The translations under genes and the position numbers were made by a program. The notes below the pieces were generated by a model, which was given only the letters and a program-made list of their open reading frames with translations, was not told the origin of the DNA and searched no databases. Source: a virus. Taken from it: DNA of 26,426 nucleotides. Positions 1 to 16,778 of this stretch are shown here, piece by piece. The stretch is from IMG/VR virus record IMGVR_UViG_3300047451_000020, positions 1 through 26,426 of that record. One strand, written 5' to 3'. Numbering within the stretch: the first letter of the stretch is position 1; each line of letters starts with the position of its first letter.

Positions 1-483
1 AAAAACCAGTACAAGGGTAAAGAAACAAATTTAAATTTAGCTAACCATTGGACATTAGCAAGAGAAACAGCACCAGCTTCAAAAGATTGGTGGCATAAAT
101 GTTTTCCTTCTGAAAAATATAACTTTGTTAAAGTAAACTTCATTGAACCATTGCAAGGATTAGGACCACGTATTGATTTAGGTCCTAAAGGTGATAATGT
201 ATTTGAAGTAATTGATCACGGACTACCTGTTCATTTAGCTATGAAGCGACCTGGACATGATTGTAAGTTAGTAGTAGAAGATTGTGGCATTGTACCAATG
301 AATGAAGGATCAATGTATCTATTAAATCCTACTAAACAATATGCATACATTAACACATCATCAACTCAAGATGCACATACACACATTGCTAGTGTTACCT
401 TAGGAGACCAGTTTACAAGATTTTGTGATCTTATAGCTAGAAGCTACGACATACAAAGTAGGTTACACAATGACCATCAGTAA
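1..483 (+). CDS. Oxygenase-like hypothetical protein, 5' end cut off
   Basis: The reading frame is open from the first base of the window to a TAA at 481-483, so the N-terminus lies outside. About 160 residues are visible. A central block (PRIDLG..., then DHGLPVHLAMKRPGH, then GSMYLLNPTKQYAYINTSS...THIASV) has the rhythm of the aspartyl/asparaginyl beta-hydroxylase type of double-stranded beta-helix 2-oxoglutarate oxygenase. The usual second metal histidine and the arginine are not clearly placed, so this is only a resemblance. The TTG at 151 is an unlikely start because the homology-like pattern continues upstream of it. The next gene starts 14 nt inside its 3' end, which points to the same transcript as the AbrB/kdsA/kdsB run. 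It could equally be an unrelated cupin-fold protein. Confidence 0.55.
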   Translation, partial: KNQYKGKETNLNLANHWTLARETAPASKDWWHKCFPSEKYNFVKVNFIEPLQGLGPRIDLGPKGDNVFEVIDHGLPVHLAMKRPGHDCKLVVEDCGIVPMNEGSMYLLNPTKQYAYINTSSTQDAHTHIASVTLGDQFTRFCDLIARSYDIQSRLHNDHQ

Positions 484-655
484 AGAATACAAGTACGAAG
501 ACCTATTTCACGTTGAAACCAAAGGACCACGTGCAGGTGAAACTATTTTAACTCTTCCTCCAGAGCTTCTTAAAGAAAAAGGATGGGACGAAGGAACTAA
601 ACTTAAAATTGAAGTAGGTGATATGGGTACTCTAATATTAACGGAGATAACATGA
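470..655 (+). CDS. SpoVT/AbrB-domain protein (antitoxin-like)
   Basis: The product is a 61-residue protein. Its second half (TILTLPPELLKEKGWDEGTK, then LKIEVGDMGTLILTEI) follows the swapped-hairpin AbrB/MazE fold pattern: LP.E.L...GW..G..L.......G.L.L. Such domains bind DNA as dimers and are found in transition-state regulators and in antitoxins of type II toxin-antitoxin modules. No toxin-like partner is evident next to it: the upstream gene is oxygenase-like and the downstream gene is KdsA. It overlaps the upstream gene by 14 nt and shares an ATGA-type overlap with kdsA (start at 652, stop at 653-655), so it is translationally coupled to the Kdo genes. A role as a small regulator is inferred from the fold only. 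Confidence 0.75.
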   Translation: MTISKEYKYEDLFHVETKGPRAGETILTLPPELLKEKGWDEGTKLKIEVGDMGTLILTEIT

Positions 656-1431
656 GAATTATTGCAGGGCCTTGCCAACACGAATCATACGAACACAGTT
701 TAATGATTGCCAAACATTGCAAAGCAATTTGTGATAAGTTAGGTATTGACTATTACTTCAAAGCAAGTTTTGACAAAGCAAATAGAAGTAGTATGCAAGG
801 TAAACGTGGTGTTGGACTTATTAATACACTAAACGACTTTAGAAGATTAAAAGATGCAATACCAAATCTTAAAATTCTTACAGATGTACATGATGTAGAC
901 CAAATTGAAAAGTTAGAGATGGATGAATTCTGTGACTTAGTAGACGTATTACAAATACCCGCATTCCTTTGTAGGCAAACTGACTTGGTACAAGCGGCAT
1001 GCGAAACAGGCAAAATTGTTAACATCAAAAAAGGACAGTTCTTAGCACCTTGGGACATGAAAGGTATTCTAAGCAAGTGTACTGATGCTAAACAAGTTTG
1101 GATAACCGAAAGGGGAACAAGTTTTGGATATAATACTTTGGTGGTTGATTTCACCGGCCTTAATTATATGCTTGATAATTTTAGCAATCCTATTATATTG
1201 GATGCCACACACTCAGTACAGAAGCCAGGCGGTAATGGAAGTAGTAGTGGCGGTAATCGCGATTATGTGCCTGGCTTATGTAGGGCAGGTAGTGCTTTGG
1301 GTATTACAGACTTCTTCTTAGAAGTACATGATGACCCTGATAATGCCCCAAGTGATGGTCCTAACATGCTACACTTAGATAATTTTGAAAGGGTTATAAA
1401 TGACATCGTCAGCTATTCTTATTCCGGCTAG
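652..1431 (+). CDS. kdsA: 3-deoxy-8-phosphooctulonate synthase (Kdo-8-P synthase)
   Basis: Condenses phosphoenolpyruvate with arabinose-5-phosphate to Kdo-8-phosphate, the first committed step to the Kdo sugar of lipopolysaccharide and capsule. The 259 residues carry the family signatures in order: AGPC near residue 5, KANRSS at 42-47, TDVHD at 77-81, NIKKGQFLAPWDM around 124-136, TERGTSFGY at 152-160, DATHSVQ at 184-190 and EVHDDPDNAPSDGPN at 224-238. Cys8, His187, Glu224 and Asp235 sit at the four metal-ligand positions known from the metal-dependent (Aquifex-type) class. Metal-independent E. coli KdsA has Asn in place of the Cys, so this copy is predicted to be metal dependent. It is slightly shorter than the roughly 280-residue bacterial enzymes. 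It overlaps the preceding gene by 4 nt and kdsB by 32 nt. The partner steps KdsD and KdsC are not in the window and would have to come from the host or from elsewhere in the genome. Confidence 0.95.
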   Translation: MRIIAGPCQHESYEHSLMIAKHCKAICDKLGIDYYFKASFDKANRSSMQGKRGVGLINTLNDFRRLKDAIPNLKILTDVHDVDQIEKLEMDEFCDLVDVLQIPAFLCRQTDLVQAACETGKIVNIKKGQFLAPWDMKGILSKCTDAKQVWITERGTSFGYNTLVVDFTGLNYMLDNFSNPIILDATHSVQKPGGNGSSSGGNRDYVPGLCRAGSALGITDFFLEVHDDPDNAPSDGPNMLHLDNFERVINDIVSYSYSG

Positions 1432-2095
1432 ATTTGCTAGTACACGTTTTCCTGGCAAGCCATTAGCTATGTTGGGCAAAAAGACTATGATCAGACGTGT
1501 GTATGACGCTTGTATTGCGTCTAAGATACCAACATATGTAGTAACTGACAGTATGCAGATATACAACCAGTTCAATGCAGACACTTGTTTTATTGAAGAA
1601 ACGGAGTATGAAAACGGAACTGCAAGATGTGCAGGTGCAATTAAGCACGAGTTTTTTAGCAAGTACGATACATTTATTAACGTACAAGGTGACATGCCAG
1701 ATGTTACACTAGACATGATTGAAGGAACATTAAGCAACTTAAAAGACTATGATGTGTCCACAATGTGTGCAATGATGCCAGAAGAAAAACAGAACGACCC
1801 TCACACAGTTAAACTAGTTAGAGGTGCAGGTAAGTGTTTATGGTTTGGTAGAGGCATGACCGGCTACGGTGATTGGCATTTAGGTATTTACGGTTACAAA
1901 CGTAAAGCATTAGAACAATACGATAACTTAATTGTTACAAAAGAAGAACGCCACGAAAGTTTAGAACAGCTTCGTTGGTTAAAGAACGGATGGAATATTG
2001 GTGTACTTCCTTGTGAGTTTAGCGGAATGGAAATTAATACACCAGAAGAATTAGAACAATGGAACGAACTGAATGGCAATAATAGTAAAAGATAA
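1400..2095 (+). CDS. kdsB: CMP-Kdo synthetase (3-deoxy-manno-octulosonate cytidylyltransferase)
   Basis: Activates Kdo with CTP to CMP-Kdo, the donor for Kdo transferases. The 231 residues begin with the cytidylyltransferase signature IPARFASTRFPGKPL (about residues 7-21), followed by a Rossmann-like GT-A fold, TYVVTDS near residue 45, and NVQGDMPDV, the counterpart of the usual VQGDEP metal/nucleotide motif with Met in place of Glu. The C-terminal part has GIYGYKRKALEQY and NTPEELE, both typical of KdsB. It starts inside the 3' end of kdsA (32-nt overlap) behind an AAGGG ribosome-binding site at about 1389-1393. The following oxygenase gene starts 23 nt before its end. With kdsA it lets the phage boost CMP-Kdo supply provided Kdo-8-P phosphatase is available. 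Confidence 0.93.
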   Translation: MTSSAILIPARFASTRFPGKPLAMLGKKTMIRRVYDACIASKIPTYVVTDSMQIYNQFNADTCFIEETEYENGTARCAGAIKHEFFSKYDTFINVQGDMPDVTLDMIEGTLSNLKDYDVSTMCAMMPEEKQNDPHTVKLVRGAGKCLWFGRGMTGYGDWHLGIYGYKRKALEQYDNLIVTKEERHESLEQLRWLKNGWNIGVLPCEFSGMEINTPEELEQWNELNGNNSKR

Positions 2096-2585
2096 CTTCT
2101 TAGATCAAAAACTAATTGATACTATTGCAACTGAGATCAAAACAAAGATCCAGTCGTCAGAAGCTGTCTGGGCTACTAGTCATAGTTGGGAAGGTATAGT
2201 TGTTGAAGGATCTAATAGTGCTAACATGAGTCCTTTGAAAAACGGTATACATGAACTACGTCAAAAGTTTGTAAACTTAAATCCGTTTTATAGTGGGTTA
2301 CAGTTCGAAGCATTTATATACTTATGGAATAGAAACAGTATGCTAGACTGGCATGATGATTCAGGATATGTAGCAAGTGGTACAATTTATCTTAATCAAC
2401 ATTGGGATTCAGCAGACGGTGGGTTATTCTTATACAAAGAAGATGAACAAATTCTAGCACAAGAACCAAAGTTTAATAGATTGATACTAAACGACAATAG
2501 AAAAAATTCAACAATGCATAGTGTAAGTGCTATTACTCCTTGGGCTAAACAAACAAGAGTAACTGTACAAGCGAGGTTTAAATAA
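2073..2585 (+). CDS. Fe(II)/2-oxoglutarate-dependent oxygenase
   Basis: The product has 170 residues with the non-heme iron triad of 2OG oxygenases: an HxD in WHDDSGY (His94, Asp96), a distal His149 in TMHSV, and Arg162 in TRVTVQARF, which would bind the 2-oxoglutarate carboxylate. GGLFLYKEDEQ between the metal ligands matches the prolyl-4-hydroxylase-like subgroup. The substrate cannot be read from the sequence. It lies in the same overlapping run as kdsA and kdsB (23-nt overlap with kdsB) and is followed after a TAATG junction by a second oxygenase. This placement suggests, but does not prove, that it acts on a sugar or cell-surface product of the Kdo module. A protein or nucleotide substrate is also possible. 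Confidence 0.85.
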   Translation: MAIIVKDNFLDQKLIDTIATEIKTKIQSSEAVWATSHSWEGIVVEGSNSANMSPLKNGIHELRQKFVNLNPFYSGLQFEAFIYLWNRNSMLDWHDDSGYVASGTIYLNQHWDSADGGLFLYKEDEQILAQEPKFNRLILNDNRKNSTMHSVSAITPWAKQTRVTVQARFK

Positions 2586-3172
2586 TGTATCAACTAACTC
2601 CGCCTAACATACGTAATAACCCAATGCCGTACTTTAAGTTACAGGAATGGGGTCTTGAACAATCAATGATTGATGCTATTGAAGACCAAATTAATGTTCA
2701 ACCTGCAAAGTATATTACTGATAATGGTAAAGATGATGACACATCAATACGTAGTACAGACATTGATTGGATTGATACTCGTATGCAACCAGACTTTTAT
2801 GCACTACTAGGTAATGTTGTCCATTATGCAAACAACACATTATTCAAATATGCAATTACAGATTTAGAACCTTGCCAGTACGGAGTATATGACGCTGACA
2901 AGAAAGGACACTACGACACTCATTCGGACGGGGCCTTTAAAGGACAACACGGCCAGGTTCGGAAGATATCTTTTAGTATTCTTCTTAGTGATCCAAAAGA
3001 TTTTGAAGGCGGCGAGTTATTACTAATGCCAGACTTTCAAGGTATTAAGACAGATTTACAAAAGCATGAGATCTGTTTCTTCCCAAGTTGGTTACCTCAC
3101 AAAGTAACTCCTGTTACTAAAGGCATTCGCAAAAGTATTGTTGGGTGGGTACATGGACCCGATTTTGTGTAA
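2585..3172 (+). CDS. PKHD-type 2-oxoglutarate/Fe(II) oxygenase
   Basis: The 195-residue protein carries the PKHD-type hydroxylase pattern: HYDTHSD (His113, Asp115), RKISFSILLSDP, FEGGELLL, FFPSWLPHKVTPV with His172 as the third iron ligand, and GIRKSIVGWVHGP, where Arg182 would contact 2-oxoglutarate. The family hydroxylates protein side chains or small molecules, and the target here is unknown. It starts on the last base of the preceding stop (TAATG at 2583-2587), so the two oxygenases are translationally coupled. It is the last gene of the first run: downstream lies an intergenic region with a new promoter. Its identity as a 2OG oxygenase is secure; the substrate is not. Confidence 0.88.
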   Translation: MYQLTPPNIRNNPMPYFKLQEWGLEQSMIDAIEDQINVQPAKYITDNGKDDDTSIRSTDIDWIDTRMQPDFYALLGNVVHYANNTLFKYAITDLEPCQYGVYDADKKGHYDTHSDGAFKGQHGQVRKISFSILLSDPKDFEGGELLLMPDFQGIKTDLQKHEICFFPSWLPHKVTPVTKGIRKSIVGWVHGPDFV

Positions 3173-3282: not shown

Positions 3283-3531
3283 ATGAAAACAACTATCCAA
3301 GATAGTGTGCTAACAGCACTTCAAAGCGGCAAAGAGTATACTTCAGCTGAACTTAAATCAAGATTCAAAGCTGGTAATCCTCAAGCTGTAATCCAATCAC
3401 TAAGATTCGCAGGACACCCTGTGTATTTGAACACTAAGAAAAATGGTGTTAAAAAGTACAGATTGGGAACACCGTCAAGAGCAATCGTAGCCGCTGGTTA
3501 CAAAGCACTTGCAAAAGGTTTAGTAAGCTAA
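3283..3531 (+). CDS. Small winged-helix-like DNA-binding protein
   Basis: The product has 82 residues and is basic. The first part (TTIQDSVLTALQSGKEYTSA then ELKSRF) has the helix-strand-helix rhythm of a winged-helix domain. AGNPQAVIQSLRFAGHPVYL would be the recognition helix and wing, and NGVKKYRLG looks like the closing strand. This fold assignment comes from pattern only. The gene has its own consensus promoter, a strong ribosome-binding site (AAAGGAG, ending about 8 nt before the ATG) and a hairpin just after its stop, so it is a single-gene unit, unlike the overlapping genes around it. It might be an early phage regulator. No metal-binding or catalytic residues are apparent. Confidence 0.75.
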   Translation: MKTTIQDSVLTALQSGKEYTSAELKSRFKAGNPQAVIQSLRFAGHPVYLNTKKNGVKKYRLGTPSRAIVAAGYKALAKGLVS

Positions 3532-3748: not shown

Positions 3749-5083
3749 ATGAGAACACAACCACAAGAAATTATTGCAAAATTAGAGGCAGACAACAGTC
3801 GCCTAGCAAAAGAAGAAGTTATCGTAGAAGCGATGGAAGAAGAACTAGATGAGTTTTTCGAAGGTGTAAAAATGGCACTTGACCCGCTTGTAACTTTTGG
3901 TGTTAAACAAGTACCACAAAAAGAAGAAAACGAAGTACTTTCAGCACAAGGTCTTGCATGGCCTACATTTAAAGAATTAGCACGTAACTTAATTGATAGA
4001 AAACTTACAGGTCATAATGCTAGAGATGCCATTATACTTTGTAAAGACCTTGCAACGGCAGAGCAATGGAATATGTTCTATCGTAGAATCCTTATTAAAG
4101 ATTTACGTTGTGGCGTTAGTGAAAAAACAGTAAACAAGGTTGCTAAGAAAATTGGAATGCCACAGTACAGTATTCCTACATTTACTTGTTCACTTGCACA
4201 CGACTCAGCTAACCATGAAAAGAAAATGGTTGGTAAGAAACAAATTGAAGTTAAACTAGATGGTGTACGTGTACTAACTATTATACGTGGTAACAAAGTA
4301 GAAATGTTTAGCCGTAATGGAAAACAGTTTCATAACTTTGATCACATCATTGAAGAAATTAAAGAAGTACTCAAAGACAACCAAGCACCATATGATCTTG
4401 TGCTAGACGGAGAAGTAATGAGTGCTAACTTCCAAGACTTAATGAAACAGATACATCGTAAAGAAACTGTCCAAAATAGTGATGCAGTATTACATTTGTT
4501 TGACATTTGTCCGTTAGAGGATTTTAAGAAAGGCAAATGGGATAAACCACAGAGTTTTAGAAGTGCGGCAACCAAGGCTTGGGTAGAAAAACACTCAAGC
4601 GTTTTAAAGCACGTACAAGCACTTGAGTGGGAGGAGGTAGACCTAAGTACTCCTGAAGGCAATAAACGCTTTGTAGAGCTTAATAAGACGGCTGTAGACG
4701 GTGGTTATGAAGGTGTTATGATCAAAGATATTGATGCACCCTATGAATGTAAGCGAACTCATGCTTGGTTAAAGGCAAAACCATTTATCGAAATTACACT
4801 AAAAGTCGTAGACGTTGAAGAAGGCACTGGACGTAATGAAGGCCGACTTGGTGCCATAATAGTAGAAGGAGAGGACGATGGATACAATTATCACCTTAAC
4901 TGTGGAAGTGGTTTCACTGACGATCAACGTAGTAGCTTCTGGGCTGACCGTACTAACATCATTGGTTCTTTAGTAGAAATAAGAGCAGATGCTCGTACTA
5001 AATCACAAGATAGTGAAACGTATAGTTTACGTTTTCCACGATTTAAAACGTTTCGTGGCTTTGACTCTAATGAAAAACTTTGA
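3749..5083 (+). CDS. ATP-dependent DNA ligase, T4 gp30-like
   Basis: Seals nicks in duplex DNA during replication and repair through an enzyme-adenylate. The 444 residues hold an N-terminal helical domain (about 1-150) and the nucleotidyltransferase core. Motif I is EVKLDGVR with Lys169 as the AMP-accepting lysine. FSRNGKQF follows, motif III is DLVLDGEVM with Glu222, motif IV is EGVMIKD at about 321-327, and motif V is WLKAKP at about 340-345. The C-terminal OB-fold begins near LKVVDVEEGTGRNEGRLGAI. The length is close to T4 ligase (487 aa). ATP-dependent enzymes of this layout are typical of T-even-like phages, while bacterial replication uses NAD-dependent LigA. Its own consensus promoter lies just upstream; the ribosome-binding site is AGAGG shortly before the ATG. 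Confidence 0.94.
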   Translation: MRTQPQEIIAKLEADNSRLAKEEVIVEAMEEELDEFFEGVKMALDPLVTFGVKQVPQKEENEVLSAQGLAWPTFKELARNLIDRKLTGHNARDAIILCKDLATAEQWNMFYRRILIKDLRCGVSEKTVNKVAKKIGMPQYSIPTFTCSLAHDSANHEKKMVGKKQIEVKLDGVRVLTIIRGNKVEMFSRNGKQFHNFDHIIEEIKEVLKDNQAPYDLVLDGEVMSANFQDLMKQIHRKETVQNSDAVLHLFDICPLEDFKKGKWDKPQSFRSAATKAWVEKHSSVLKHVQALEWEEVDLSTPEGNKRFVELNKTAVDGGYEGVMIKDIDAPYECKRTHAWLKAKPFIEITLKVVDVEEGTGRNEGRLGAIIVEGEDDGYNYHLNCGSGFTDDQRSSFWADRTNIIGSLVEIRADARTKSQDSETYSLRFPRFKTFRGFDSNEKL

Positions 5084-12273: not shown

Positions 12274-12828
12274 ATGCTTGTAATTGGCAACGGTGAAACT
12301 AGATATAACATTGATTTAGGTCTGTTTAGAGATACTAAAGTAGGATGTAATGCCCTGTATAGAGATTATACAGTAGATCATTTAGTCTGTTGCGACAAGC
12401 GAATGGTTAAAGAAGTACTAGAAGCAAACACATTTAAGGGTACTTTATATACCCGTAAAGACTGGTTTGAAGATTTCAAAGGAGTTGAGTGTTTACCTGA
12501 CTTACCTTACAAAGGTACAGCAAGACCAGATGATCCTTGGCATTGGGGCAGTGGTCCTTTTGCTGTACTAATTGGAGCAAGATTAGCATATGAATGGAAA
12601 GAACCTGTTAACCTAGTAGGGTTTGATTTGTACAATGGAAATATTTACAAGGATACTAAAAACTACGCCAAATCAGATGCAAGACCAGTAGATCCTAGTT
12701 ATTGGATACACCAAATGAACAAAGTATTTGAACACTTTCCTAGTGTTACGTTCAATTATTATTCTACAAAAAAATGGCCAGATAAGTATAGTAACATAAA
12801 GAATTTTAATTTAGAGGAACTTAAATGA
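12274..12828 (+). CDS. Rossmann-like hypothetical protein
   Basis: The 184 residues start at the ATG at 12274; an in-frame TTG at 12253 lies within the promoter octamers and is less likely. The N-terminus MLVIGNGETRYNIDLGLF then TKVGCNALYRDYTVDHLVCC has the glycine loop, the buried strand and the 'GCNA.YRD' element seen in Rossmann-type motility-accessory/DUF115-like and sialyltransferase-like proteins. Downstream blocks are LYTRKDW, DDPWHWGSGPFAVLIGARLA, NLVGFDLYNGNIYKDT and DPSYWIHQM. I remember similar proteins in marine T4-like phages but know no proven activity. A nucleotide-sugar role is possible given the neighbouring glycosyltransferase but remains a guess. It overlaps the next oxygenase gene by 4 nt. 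Confidence 0.7.
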   Translation: MLVIGNGETRYNIDLGLFRDTKVGCNALYRDYTVDHLVCCDKRMVKEVLEANTFKGTLYTRKDWFEDFKGVECLPDLPYKGTARPDDPWHWGSGPFAVLIGARLAYEWKEPVNLVGFDLYNGNIYKDTKNYAKSDARPVDPSYWIHQMNKVFEHFPSVTFNYYSTKKWPDKYSNIKNFNLEELK

Positions 12829-13475
12829 ACTACGAACCAAAACATCATAATGCGTTCCCTTCACTGATCACTAGTTTTGATATTGAAGGACACGAAAGTG
12901 AGCAGACTTGTGTAGACATGATTGATGCGTTTAATGAGTATGGTCCCGACCATCCGTTAGTTGCAAAAGGAAAAAGTAGTTATCAAAAAGGAGACGAACA
13001 GTTTTTAAACGATCACAAACTTGTTCCTCTTTGGAAAACTGTACAAGAATGTATTGACGTATACACACAGCATCTTGGTGTTGATTATACTCTATTGTCA
13101 ACTAGCTGGTTTAATTCTTTATTCGAAGGTGGTGCAGTCGACGCCCACAGACATGAACGCAGTATTATTAGTGGCGCATACTATCCGTATGTAGACAAAG
13201 GTAGTTCGCCTATTGTATTTAGAAATCCTAACCAAGTAAACTTTATGAACTATTCACCAATGGGGTTAACAGACTACAATAGATATGAATTAGAATGTTT
13301 TCCTAAAACAGGATTATTAGTTTTGTTTCCAAGTTGGATGGAACATCGTGTTATTCCAAACCAAACAGAAAAAAGATACACAGTTAGTTTTAACACAATT
13401 AGACATAGTGACAGAGCCGCATTTATGAACATAAGAGATTATAGGATTGACCCGCATGAAAGCACAGATAGTTGA
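12825..13475 (+). CDS. 2OG-Fe(II) oxygenase, TIGR02466-like (copy 1)
   Basis: The 216-residue protein matches the TIGR02466 type of putative 2OG oxygenase. AHRHERSIISGAYYPYV holds the iron ligand region (His108/His110), SSPIVFRNP follows, LLVLFPSWMEHRVIPN supplies the distal His174, and KRYTVSFNT contains Arg184 for 2-oxoglutarate. The substrate is unknown. It starts 4 nt inside the preceding gene (ATGA overlap) and is followed by a paralogue that begins 20 nt before its end. The two share the blocks H-R-H-E-x-SIISGAYYP, LVLFPSW and VSFN or LSFN in the same order, so they arose by duplication, probably long ago given the low identity elsewhere. Confidence 0.85.
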   Translation: MNYEPKHHNAFPSLITSFDIEGHESEQTCVDMIDAFNEYGPDHPLVAKGKSSYQKGDEQFLNDHKLVPLWKTVQECIDVYTQHLGVDYTLLSTSWFNSLFEGGAVDAHRHERSIISGAYYPYVDKGSSPIVFRNPNQVNFMNYSPMGLTDYNRYELECFPKTGLLVLFPSWMEHRVIPNQTEKRYTVSFNTIRHSDRAAFMNIRDYRIDPHESTDS

Positions 13476-14058
13476 TGGACCGTTTAGGAAAGCAAACTAT
13501 CCTGTCTTTCCTACACTAGTACAAGTTTACGATTTACAAGACAACCCTAGTAACATTGAGATAATCAATTACATTGACGAGCAAGAATTAACCGAATGGC
13601 CAAAAGACATTGGTGATGGTGCTTCAACTAGTCAAAACGAAATGAACATACTTGATAACTTTGACATTAAAAAAGATATTGAAAATTGTGTAAATGAATA
13701 TTGCATTGACGTTGGACTAGACAGATTAGAAATTGGAAAGAGTTGGCTTAACGTACAAAGACAAAAAGGCTACATTGCTTCACACAGACACGAACTCAGT
13801 ATTATAAGTGGAGCCTACTATCCGTTTGTAGAACCAAACAGTTCACCATTAGTTTTTGGAAGTCCAATACTAGGTCCTAAAATGAGTGAGATACACAATC
13901 AAGCTACAGAGTATACTGCTAACGAAATGGAATTTGATGTACGTACAGGCTTCCTTGTATTATTTCCAAGTTGGTTATATCATTATACAATTCCAAACCC
14001 TTCATTAAAACGAGTAACCTTAAGTTTCAATACCTACCACAAAACACTTGACAAGTAG
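13456..14058 (+). CDS. 2OG-Fe(II) oxygenase, TIGR02466-like (copy 2)
   Basis: The 200-residue paralogue of the preceding gene has SHRHELSIISGAYYPFV (His110/His112), SSPLVFGSP, FLVLFPSWLYHYTIPN with His176, and KRVTLSFNT with Arg186. I start it at the ATG at 13456, which has AGGA about 10 nt upstream; the in-frame TTG at 13447 sits almost on top of that AGGA. It overlaps copy 1 by 20 nt. The 3' end of the gene contains the -35 box of the promoter for the QueD-like gene. Two different but related oxygenases kept side by side suggest a heteromer or two successive hydroxylations, which is inference only. Confidence 0.85.
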   Translation: MKAQIVDGPFRKANYPVFPTLVQVYDLQDNPSNIEIINYIDEQELTEWPKDIGDGASTSQNEMNILDNFDIKKDIENCVNEYCIDVGLDRLEIGKSWLNVQRQKGYIASHRHELSIISGAYYPFVEPNSSPLVFGSPILGPKMSEIHNQATEYTANEMEFDVRTGFLVLFPSWLYHYTIPNPSLKRVTLSFNTYHKTLDK

Positions 14059-14150: not shown

Positions 14151-14597
14151 ATGGCTTATTATAGCACTAAACATTACGGACACAACATTGGACTGTCAGC
14201 AGTCTTTAGACAACCAAATGCAGATCATTCACATTGTCATTTACTACATGGCTACAGTTTAGCATTTACATTTAAGTTTGGTTGTAATGAATTAGATAAT
14301 AAAAACTGGGCAGTTGACTTTGGTGGACTAAAGCCTTTAAAGAAGTGGTTAGAGGATCACTTCGATCACAAGACAGCAATTGATAAAAACGATCCACACT
14401 TGGACAAGTTTATGGAACTACAAGAACTTGACCTAGCAGAGATTGTTGTAATGGATGGTGTTGGTGCAGAGAAGTTTGCCGAACATGCATTTAATTTTGC
14501 AGACAAGCTAGTACGTGAAGCAAGTAATGATCGTTGCTATTGCGTAAGTGCAGAATGTGCAGAGCATGGAGCAAATTCTGCAATCTATGAGAGATAG
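14151..14597 (+). CDS. QueD-like 6-carboxy/6-pyruvoyl-tetrahydropterin synthase homologue
   Basis: The T-fold 148-residue protein belongs to the QueD/PTPS superfamily, whose QueD members turn dihydroneopterin triphosphate into 6-carboxytetrahydropterin on the way to queuosine and 7-deazaguanines. The metal-site region reads ADHSHCHLLHGYS (about residues 24-36), with Cys29 and His33. The usual HGH is HGY, a change I also remember from an alphaproteobacterial subfamily. Other family blocks are NWAVDFGGLKPLKKWLEDHF, FDHKT at 71-75 and AEHGANSAIY at 137-146. No queC, queE or folE is in the window. The gene has its own consensus promoter, a roughly 70-nt leader and a strong AGGAG site. Whether it makes the QueD product or a related pterin reaction is uncertain. 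Confidence 0.85.
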   Translation: MAYYSTKHYGHNIGLSAVFRQPNADHSHCHLLHGYSLAFTFKFGCNELDNKNWAVDFGGLKPLKKWLEDHFDHKTAIDKNDPHLDKFMELQELDLAEIVVMDGVGAEKFAEHAFNFADKLVREASNDRCYCVSAECAEHGANSAIYER

Positions 14598-14606
14598 GAA
14601 TTATAA

Positions 14607-15158
14607 ATGATTTGGGAACAAGTAAACGAGGATCGTAAAAAACTTAAGGTAGCACATTATAAAAATGCGTTTCCAGAAGCAGTAAATGATATTAACTTTA
14701 CAACACTAGTAGAAGTAAATCAATATAAGTCTACAGTTACAAACGTAGATGAATTTGTAAAAGGAAGTACACATATTTCTGACATCGGGTCAGACAAGCG
14801 TATACAAAAATATTTGTTAGAGTTTCAAAAGAACTATGACAGACATGAAACTGAAGCTCACTTCAATGCTAGTTTGTTCTTTTCATTAAGTGACGGACAT
14901 AATAGCTTGTTCCTACATAATGATTACGAAACTGTTTTGCTTATACAAGGATACGGTGAAACTGCATATCTTGTAACAGATGGAGATACAATGAACAAAC
15001 AAATTTATCATTGTAAAACAGGAGATGCTTTACTGTTACCAAGACTTACAAATCATAAACCTTTAATCTTAGGTCCAAGAGTTACATTAAGTTTGGGTGC
15101 TAATCCTTTAAAAGCAATGACCAGTAAAAACTATGGTCCAGTTAATTCATCAATGTAG
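14607..15158 (+). CDS. Cupin/JmjC-like protein
   Basis: The product has 183 residues. The second half looks like a cupin or JmjC-type beta-barrel: LFLHNDYETVLLIQGYGETA gives an HxD pair, then GDALLLPRLTNHKPLILGPR supplies the 'GD..L.P....H' metal-site strand, ending RVTLSLGANPL. This is the order expected for Fe(II)/2OG oxygenases (HxD...H...R), so a hydroxylase is likely. The N-terminal 90 residues are not recognisable. It follows the QueD-like gene by 9 nt and precedes the glycosyltransferase by 11 nt, so all three share a transcript. The substrate is unknown. Confidence 0.7.
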   Translation: MIWEQVNEDRKKLKVAHYKNAFPEAVNDINFTTLVEVNQYKSTVTNVDEFVKGSTHISDIGSDKRIQKYLLEFQKNYDRHETEAHFNASLFFSLSDGHNSLFLHNDYETVLLIQGYGETAYLVTDGDTMNKQIYHCKTGDALLLPRLTNHKPLILGPRVTLSLGANPLKAMTSKNYGPVNSSM

Positions 15159-15871: not shown

Positions 15872-16077
15872 GTGGACAAAGAAGATTTTTAAAATTATGG
15901 AGTAGAACTGTTGGTATGCCTGTAGGGCTTGATGACGATGACAAGCCAGAGTTCTTACCTATTACACAAGACGATGTTCATAAAGCATTATGGTTTAGAA
16001 CTTTTTGGATTGTCTTGCATATATTAACGTGTGGATTTATAATTGTAGGCAACGGAAGGATGTTAAATTTATGGTAG
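15868..16077 (+). CDS. Small membrane protein
   Basis: The 69-residue protein starts at the ATG at 15868 in an ATGA overlap with the glycosyltransferase stop; an upstream TTG at 15847 lies within that gene. The N-terminus is basic (GQRRFLKLWSR), an acidic stretch DDDDKPEFLP follows, and one hydrophobic segment (FWIVLHILTCGFIIVGNG) lies near the C-terminus. This would be a single-span membrane protein. Function is not recognisable. The phosphomannomutase gene begins 7 nt before its end. Confidence 0.65.
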   Translation: MSGQRRFLKLWSRTVGMPVGLDDDDKPEFLPITQDDVHKALWFRTFWIVLHILTCGFIIVGNGRMLNLW

Positions 16078-16778
16078 ATAAGTTTATTTTTGATGTTGAC
16101 GGTACACTAACACCAAGTCGTGGATTAATTGATTTAGAATTTAAAGCGTTCTTTAATACATTTTGTTTGACAAATGATGTGTATCTAGTAACAGGTAGCG
16201 ACCGTGCTAAGACTGTAGAACAATTAAGTGAACCTACGTACAACCTAGCAAAACGTGTATACAACTGTTCAGGCAGTGATGTATATGAAGGTAGAATCAA
16301 TGTTCATCGTAGCGATTGGGCTTTACCACGCAAGTGCAATAATTGGTTAGAAGATAAACTAGAAGAAAGTACGTTTGAACTTCGTACAGGATTACATATT
16401 GAAGCAAGACCAGGTATGGTTAACTTCAGCGTAGTAGGACGTAAAGCAACGCCCGAACAACGTCAGCAATATGTTAAGTACGATACGAAATACAACGAAC
16501 GAGTGAACATTGCCGCTTTGTTCAATTTAGAATTTCCAGAATTAAAAGCAGTAGTAGGTGGAGAAACGGGTATTGATATATTCCCAAAAGGATACGACAA
16601 AAGCCAAATTATAAGAGATTTTGATCCAACCGATACACTACACTTTTTTGGTGATGCAATGGAACCTACAGGAAATGATTATCCTTTGAAGAAAGTAATC
16701 ATTGACAATGATCTAGGAATGTGCTATAATGTAAACAGTTGGAAGGATACCCGAGAACTGTTGTATGAAAAAAAATAG
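16071..16778 (+). CDS. Phosphomannomutase, eukaryotic PMM (HAD) type
   Basis: Predicted to interconvert mannose-6-phosphate and mannose-1-phosphate toward GDP-mannose. The 235 residues begin at the ATG at 16071 (MVDKFIFDVDGTLTPSRG), where Asp8 and Asp10 form the HAD catalytic pair. The PMM pattern continues with LVTGSDRAKTVEQL, YNCSGSDVYEGR, IEARPGMVNFSVVGRKATPE, QYVKYDTKYNERVNI, GGETGIDIFPKGYDKSQII and FFGDAMEPTGNDYPL. These are signatures of the alpha/PMM1 family common in eukaryotes and scattered in bacteria and viruses, not of the large bacterial ManB/AlgC mutase. The longer frame from 16005 lies over the preceding gene and is unlikely. GGAAGGA at about 16054 may serve as ribosome-binding site. 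It overlaps the next gene by 14 nt. A broad HAD phosphatase role is the main alternative. Confidence 0.9.
   Translation: MVDKFIFDVDGTLTPSRGLIDLEFKAFFNTFCLTNDVYLVTGSDRAKTVEQLSEPTYNLAKRVYNCSGSDVYEGRINVHRSDWALPRKCNNWLEDKLEESTFELRTGLHIEARPGMVNFSVVGRKATPEQRQQYVKYDTKYNERVNIAALFNLEFPELKAVVGGETGIDIFPKGYDKSQIIRDFDPTDTLHFFGDAMEPTGNDYPLKKVIIDNDLGMCYNVNSWKDTRELLYEKK

Follow-up and report, generated by a model that had tools for sequence, protein, structure and literature searches.

What brings a CMP-Kdo synthesis gene pair into one tightly packed run with two Fe(II)/2OG oxygenase genes in a phage, and do the four enzymes serve one pathway? The window analysed here, a 26,426-base virus record, opens with such a run (Table 1), which the original prediction read as a surface-modification cassette whose oxygenases may act on Kdo or a Kdo-bearing glycan. 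The gene order AbrB–kdsA–kdsB–Ox1–Ox2 and the 32-nt overlap of kdsA with kdsB are as claimed there, according to coordinates and profile searches, and the other neighbours overlap as well: Q0 and AbrB by 14 nt, AbrB and kdsA by 4 nt (ATGA), kdsB and Ox1 by 23 nt and Ox1 and Ox2 by 1 nt. We posit, with a probability of about 0.7, that kdsA–kdsB, joined here by the AbrB-like gene, form a relocatable two-gene module for CMP-Kdo supply in a family of marine jumbo phages, a module that usually resides in the replication locus, has come to lie here in a slot beside unrelated oxygenases and feeds the host envelope pathway, while the oxygenases are older at this site and probably protein hydroxylases. 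The phage itself is probably of a marine giant (jumbo) type; its relatives (cyanophages and marine virus records), rather than sample data, point to the marine origin.

Table 1. Genes at the start of the window, with the evidence for each assignment
Feature	Coordinates	Strand	Evidence or remarks
Q0, truncated ORF	1..483	+	C-terminal part of a 241-aa protein, family unknown
AbrB/MazE-like small protein, 61 aa	470..655	+	Weak profile matches
kdsA, Kdo-8-phosphate synthase, metal-dependent type	652..1431	+	TIGR01362; phage-only clade
kdsB, CMP-Kdo synthetase-like	1400..2095	+	kdsB models; PDB matches
Ox1, Fe(II)/2OG oxygenase, prolyl-hydroxylase-like fold	2073..2585	+	PF13640/PF13661; AlphaFold model
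Ox2, Fe(II)/2OG oxygenase, PKHD/PiuC-like	2585..3172	+	PF13640, phrog_61; PiuC match
w37, 82-aa conserved gene	3283..3531	+	Found 3' of Ox2 whether kdsAB is present or absent; backbone marker
ATP-dependent DNA ligase	3749..5083	+	PF01068, phrog_114; backbone marker of the Q0–Ox1–Ox2 locus

The identities of the kds genes are unequal in strength. KdsA scores above the curated cut-off for Kdo-8-phosphate synthase (TIGR01362, 324.5 versus 314 bits), and Cys8, His187, Glu224 and Asp235, which we take from their role in Aquifex KdsA to be the metal-dependent active site, are invariant across 14 phage KdsA proteins. Marine phage KdsA forms a single clade separate from cellular KdsA (SH-aLRT 100), and the window protein falls inside it; the closest cellular KdsA proteins are at most 55% identical and spread over many phyla, for which reason we dropped any call of host or donor from KdsA. 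Freshwater-type jumbo phages (G052 and G054) carry a different, cell-like KdsA. KdsB is clearly related to CMP-Kdo synthetases, yet divergent: it lies under the curated cut-off (TIGR00466, 102.6 versus 155.2 bits; best subfamily NF003952, 162.7 bits versus a cut-off of 193), kdsB models are its sole strong profile matches, and every PDB match at E<=0.001 is a CMP-Kdo synthetase. It has the nucleotide loop IPARxxSTRxPGKPL (IPARFASTRFPGKPL), and Asp98 in VQGDMPD, equivalent to D95 in Aquifex, is invariant. The identity of the AbrB-like protein is weak (MazE_antitoxin at 22.4 bits, under the 24.7 cut-off; phrog_661 at E 1e-10). Q0, the conserved gene directly upstream of Ox1/Ox2 in related phages, is found at full length elsewhere (L003:7107-7832) and had no match in a Pfam profile search.

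The whole AbrB–kdsA–kdsB–Ox1–Ox2 run is repeated in a sister phage, whose four enzymes share 77–93% protein identity with those of the window. Codon comparison with this phage gives pN/pS values of 0.31 for kdsA, 0.20 for kdsB, 0.14 for Ox1 and 0.18 for Ox2, and all four genes are therefore maintained by purifying selection; a chance arrangement is excluded because the sister phage has the same five-gene run at these ratios. Since all five genes overlap and follow the same order in both lineages, co-expression of the kds genes with Ox1/Ox2 is likely in these two. Between the two lineages (window versus L009), KdsA is 77% and KdsB 93% identical, with dS of 0.75 versus 0.19, a mosaic divergence that perhaps arose through recombination.

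Reading the neighbourhoods of viral contigs that were searched with Ox1 and Ox2 reveals a conserved order of Q0, Ox1 where present, Ox2 and w37, followed in most contigs by the ligase, w41 and w42. This locus occurs without kdsAB in 24 related viral contigs, counted by hand from the tables (8 with Ox1 and Ox2, 16 with Ox2 only), most of the oxygenase-only records being fragments without the replication locus, so that kdsAB could sit elsewhere in those phages. Where the pair is missing, the space between Q0 and Ox1 is empty (L088) or holds an ORF of 81 (L089) or 96 (L090) amino acids. AbrB–kdsA–kdsB fills it only in the window type (contigs G001–G004) and in the sister (G005 and G006), and as G001–G004 are nearly identical over this stretch, we count the insertion as two lineages only. 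The Q0–Ox1 gap is a variable slot, and Ox1 and Ox2 are, on our reading, an older part of the locus, not belonging to the kds module.

The kds pair, for its part, has another usual home. A KdsA scan yielded 165 related stretches, 80 of which were kept; KdsB is present in 74 of the 80 loci, and Ox1 adjoins in five. Together with the 24 contigs above, about 70 KdsA loci that lack Ox1/Ox2 contradict the expectation that the oxygenases are kept beside kdsA/kdsB in related phages. The kdsA/kdsB overlap varies over 80 other KdsA loci, 32 nt being the commonest length (15 loci), and the usual order in most is helicase–c6–cupin–c8–kdsA–kdsB–c3–c4–DNA polymerase domain. Scanning with c4, relatives of which occur in jumbo phages of 285–470 kb, gave 79 replication loci; 41 of them contain kdsA, kdsB or both, placed between cupin/c8 and c3–c4, and some of the other c4 loci are cut fragments. 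In sister G005 (267.8 kb), c3 and cupin stand about 450 bases apart in a replication locus devoid of kds genes, and kdsAB adjoins Ox1 at 266 kb; the pair has therefore moved, in either direction, or been re-acquired. Larger records separate the two gene sets in both ways: a 330-kb record (G047) has KdsA and KdsB without Ox2, and a 200-kb record (G058) has Ox2 without KdsA. A 275-kb record (G048) has neither KdsA nor Ox2.

Several genes travel close to the pair. We considered the cupin as a missing Kdo enzyme and rejected it: although the two co-occur in many loci, the cupin is retained where no kdsAB lies next to it, in G005 and in other phages. In G047 kdsA and kdsB are separated by a gene for a Pal-like OmpA lipoprotein (L350:9073-9585), an arrangement consistent with an envelope role. 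Other genes inserted around kdsA/kdsB are unrelated, namely uroporphyrinogen decarboxylase (L021:8764-9741), PEP carboxykinase (L073:9467-10666) and SAM synthetase (L019:6618-7712), and, taken over the different phages, these inserts form a metabolic gene island. In a 462-kb uncultured phage record (L353:7986-10951), KdsA, KdsB and a KdsD-like gene, SIS-looking by eye, follow one another in a row.

We suggest that the module supplies an activated sugar to a pathway otherwise run by the host. KdsC, SIS-domain KdsD and WaaA were none of them recognisable in 34 records, in line with the earlier observation that neither KdsC nor a Kdo transferase can be recognised in the window, and host enzymes would therefore have to supply the other steps. 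KdsA would condense PEP and arabinose-5-phosphate to Kdo-8-P, the host phosphatase KdsC would dephosphorylate it, phage KdsB would convert Kdo to CMP-Kdo, and host transferases would place Kdo in LPS or capsule, with upkeep or change of the host envelope during infection as the outcome. Judged from the gene pair, CMP-Kdo synthesis in infection is plausible, as originally proposed, and CMP-Kdo formation has been described as rate-limiting for LPS synthesis (PMC3149649). A PMM-like HAD-IIB protein of the window (16005-16778; PF03332, E 1e-24), considered as a substitute for KdsC, is also present in related phages, whether or not their records contain kdsA.

Alternatively, the phage could make CMP-Kdo for glycosyltransferases of its own and thereby decorate either the virion or the host surface with a Kdo glycan, in the latter case blocking re-infection; we regard this reading as unlikely. 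Most kdsAB jumbo phages and G005 do encode tandem proteins of ~300 aa with similarity to Capsule_synth (KpsC/KpsS, PF05159; best E 0.003, in 3 of 14 members), and GT8-like proteins are present too. But the PF05159 scores lie under the curated cut-off, the profile matches no solved Kdo transferase, related GT-like genes occur likewise in loci without kdsAB, and the search for WaaA came back empty. With sub-threshold similarity and no solved-structure match, the tandem proteins were rejected as Kdo transferases. In most of these phages they are encoded 5' of the replication helicase (L354:2049-3023; L116:8598-9527).

A further twist concerns the metal site of KdsB. The second Mg-binding aspartate of the Aquifex enzyme, D219, which has been called strictly conserved (PMC3149649), is absent from the window protein, where Asn213 takes its place. 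Among 70 distinct phage KdsB proteins, 65 have Asn at this position and the other five show no readable motif; cellular KdsB mostly has Asp. The marine jumbo-phage proteins share the motif E-x-N-[TSA], in which the Glu two residues ahead of the Asn is invariant; Glu-x-Asn likewise occurs in two Rhodobacteraceae KdsB proteins adjoining KdsA (L143 and L157), and the phage KdsB proteins of S-SCSM2R and LR756500 retain Asp. With its score under the curated cut-offs and one metal-ligand Asp missing, the predicted phage enzyme may make a product other than CMP-Kdo. Taken further, the phage-only KdsA clade and the Glu-x-Asn KdsB could represent a distinct CMP-ulosonate pathway owned by marine jumbo phages, possibly altered in metal use or in its choice of sugar, that feeds phage capsule-type glycosyltransferases coating host or virion; we hold this to be rather improbable, and keep supply of the host envelope pathway as our preferred reading.

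What, then, do the oxygenases do? Ox1 (32.7 bits) and Ox2 (49.7 bits) both exceed the gathering score of 27 for Pfam 2OG-FeII_Oxy_3 (PF13640) and retain HxD...H...R across close relatives. The AlphaFold model of Ox1 (pLDDT 77.5) has PHD2 and Pseudomonas P4H, the latter also solved with EF-Tu, as its nearest solved folds at TM-scores of about 0.7–0.78; the low-confidence Ox2 model (pLDDT 61.5) falls on the same folds, the matches of both proteins being at about 14–21% identity. By sequence, Ox2 resembles the PKHD hydroxylase PiuC (phmmer E 8e-10), although it stays below the NCBIfam cut-off of the PKHD type (PiuC/YbiX; 62.3 versus 143 bits), and this match would outweigh the fold match, given the weak support from a low-confidence model. 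The nearest solved structures are thus PHD2, Pseudomonas P4H and, for Ox2 by sequence, PiuC, rather than sugar oxygenases, a second result that speaks against action on Kdo, and the substrate is probably a protein of phage or host that undergoes hydroxylation.

KdoO is a Kdo 3-hydroxylase (Kdo_hydroxy, PF11004) with which Ox1 and Ox2 share only Fe(II)/2OG oxygenase chemistry. Neither protein matched PF11004 at E<=0.1, on which ground we rejected kinship with KdoO; the profile found nothing in 14 records scanned, control genomes having given no match either. A KdoO-like action of the oxygenases on Kdo, on CMP-Kdo or on a glycan that bears Kdo, with the five genes as one surface-modification operon, is in our estimate very unlikely. 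Tight overlaps and an identical order in two lineages at 77–93% protein identity speak for such an operon, as do 2OG oxygenases within a few kb of kdsA/kdsB in the cultured Synechococcus phage S-SCSM2R and a different 2OG oxygenase, of another family than Ox1/Ox2, near kdsA in six jumbo loci and 5' of it in several (for example L014). But the Q0–Ox locus and most kdsAB loci do without each other, KdsA and Ox2 occur one without the other in the 330-kb and 200-kb records, the fold neighbours hydroxylate proteins, and oxygenases abound in these genomes: of the 297 ORFs of G005, at least 10 encode oxygenase-like proteins, and 24 oxygenases are reported for S-SCSM1 (PMC9602691). With so many in G005, adjacency to kdsAB by chance would not be rare. 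The remaining idea, that the genes are functionless passive cargo filling the capsid, finds some comfort in slots that carry different genes in different phages but is highly improbable in view of the pN/pS values of all four genes, the recurrence of the kds pair in dozens of contigs and its conserved active-site residues.

Both enzyme groups have precedents. KdsA and KdsB are known marine viral auxiliary metabolic genes, with kdsB and kdsA among the commonest glycan genes at surface and subsurface depths (PMC10653327), and KdsA occurs in a 179-kb T4-like ocean virus (PMC5332604). The two enzymes are the same here, but their genes adjoin, have a customary place in the replication locus of a jumbo-phage family and a second site beside oxygenases, and the KdsA proteins form a clade of their own. 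Similarly, 2OG-Fe(II) oxygenases are known from marine T4-like phages (phrog_61 and phrog_81; PMC3037559, PMC9602691), and, according to PMC9602691, the functions of phage oxygenases have not been specifically investigated. Two more in the window (12825-13475 and 13447-14058) belong to phrog_81; like Ox2 they match the T4-like phage families, with several copies per genome. QueD (at 14151) and a JmjC-like protein (14607-15158) are encoded nearby. Ox2 relatives occur in 349 phage records, mostly of Synechococcus phages, whereas Ox1, found by tblastn in 6 phage records, differs from those families in being rarer. A literature search turned up no paper on kdsAB together with oxygenases in phages. 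With both kdsAB and 2OG oxygenases already known in marine phages, the details that merit attention are the shifting site of kdsAB and the altered KdsB.

What appears to be a single operon resolves into a CMP-Kdo module common to many marine jumbo phages and a set of unrelated oxygenases, illustrating that closely overlapping phage genes need not share a function: the overlap can reflect the arrival of genes in a variable slot. Provided that the Kdo module is functional, these phages would feed or alter the host outer membrane at the committed and activation steps.
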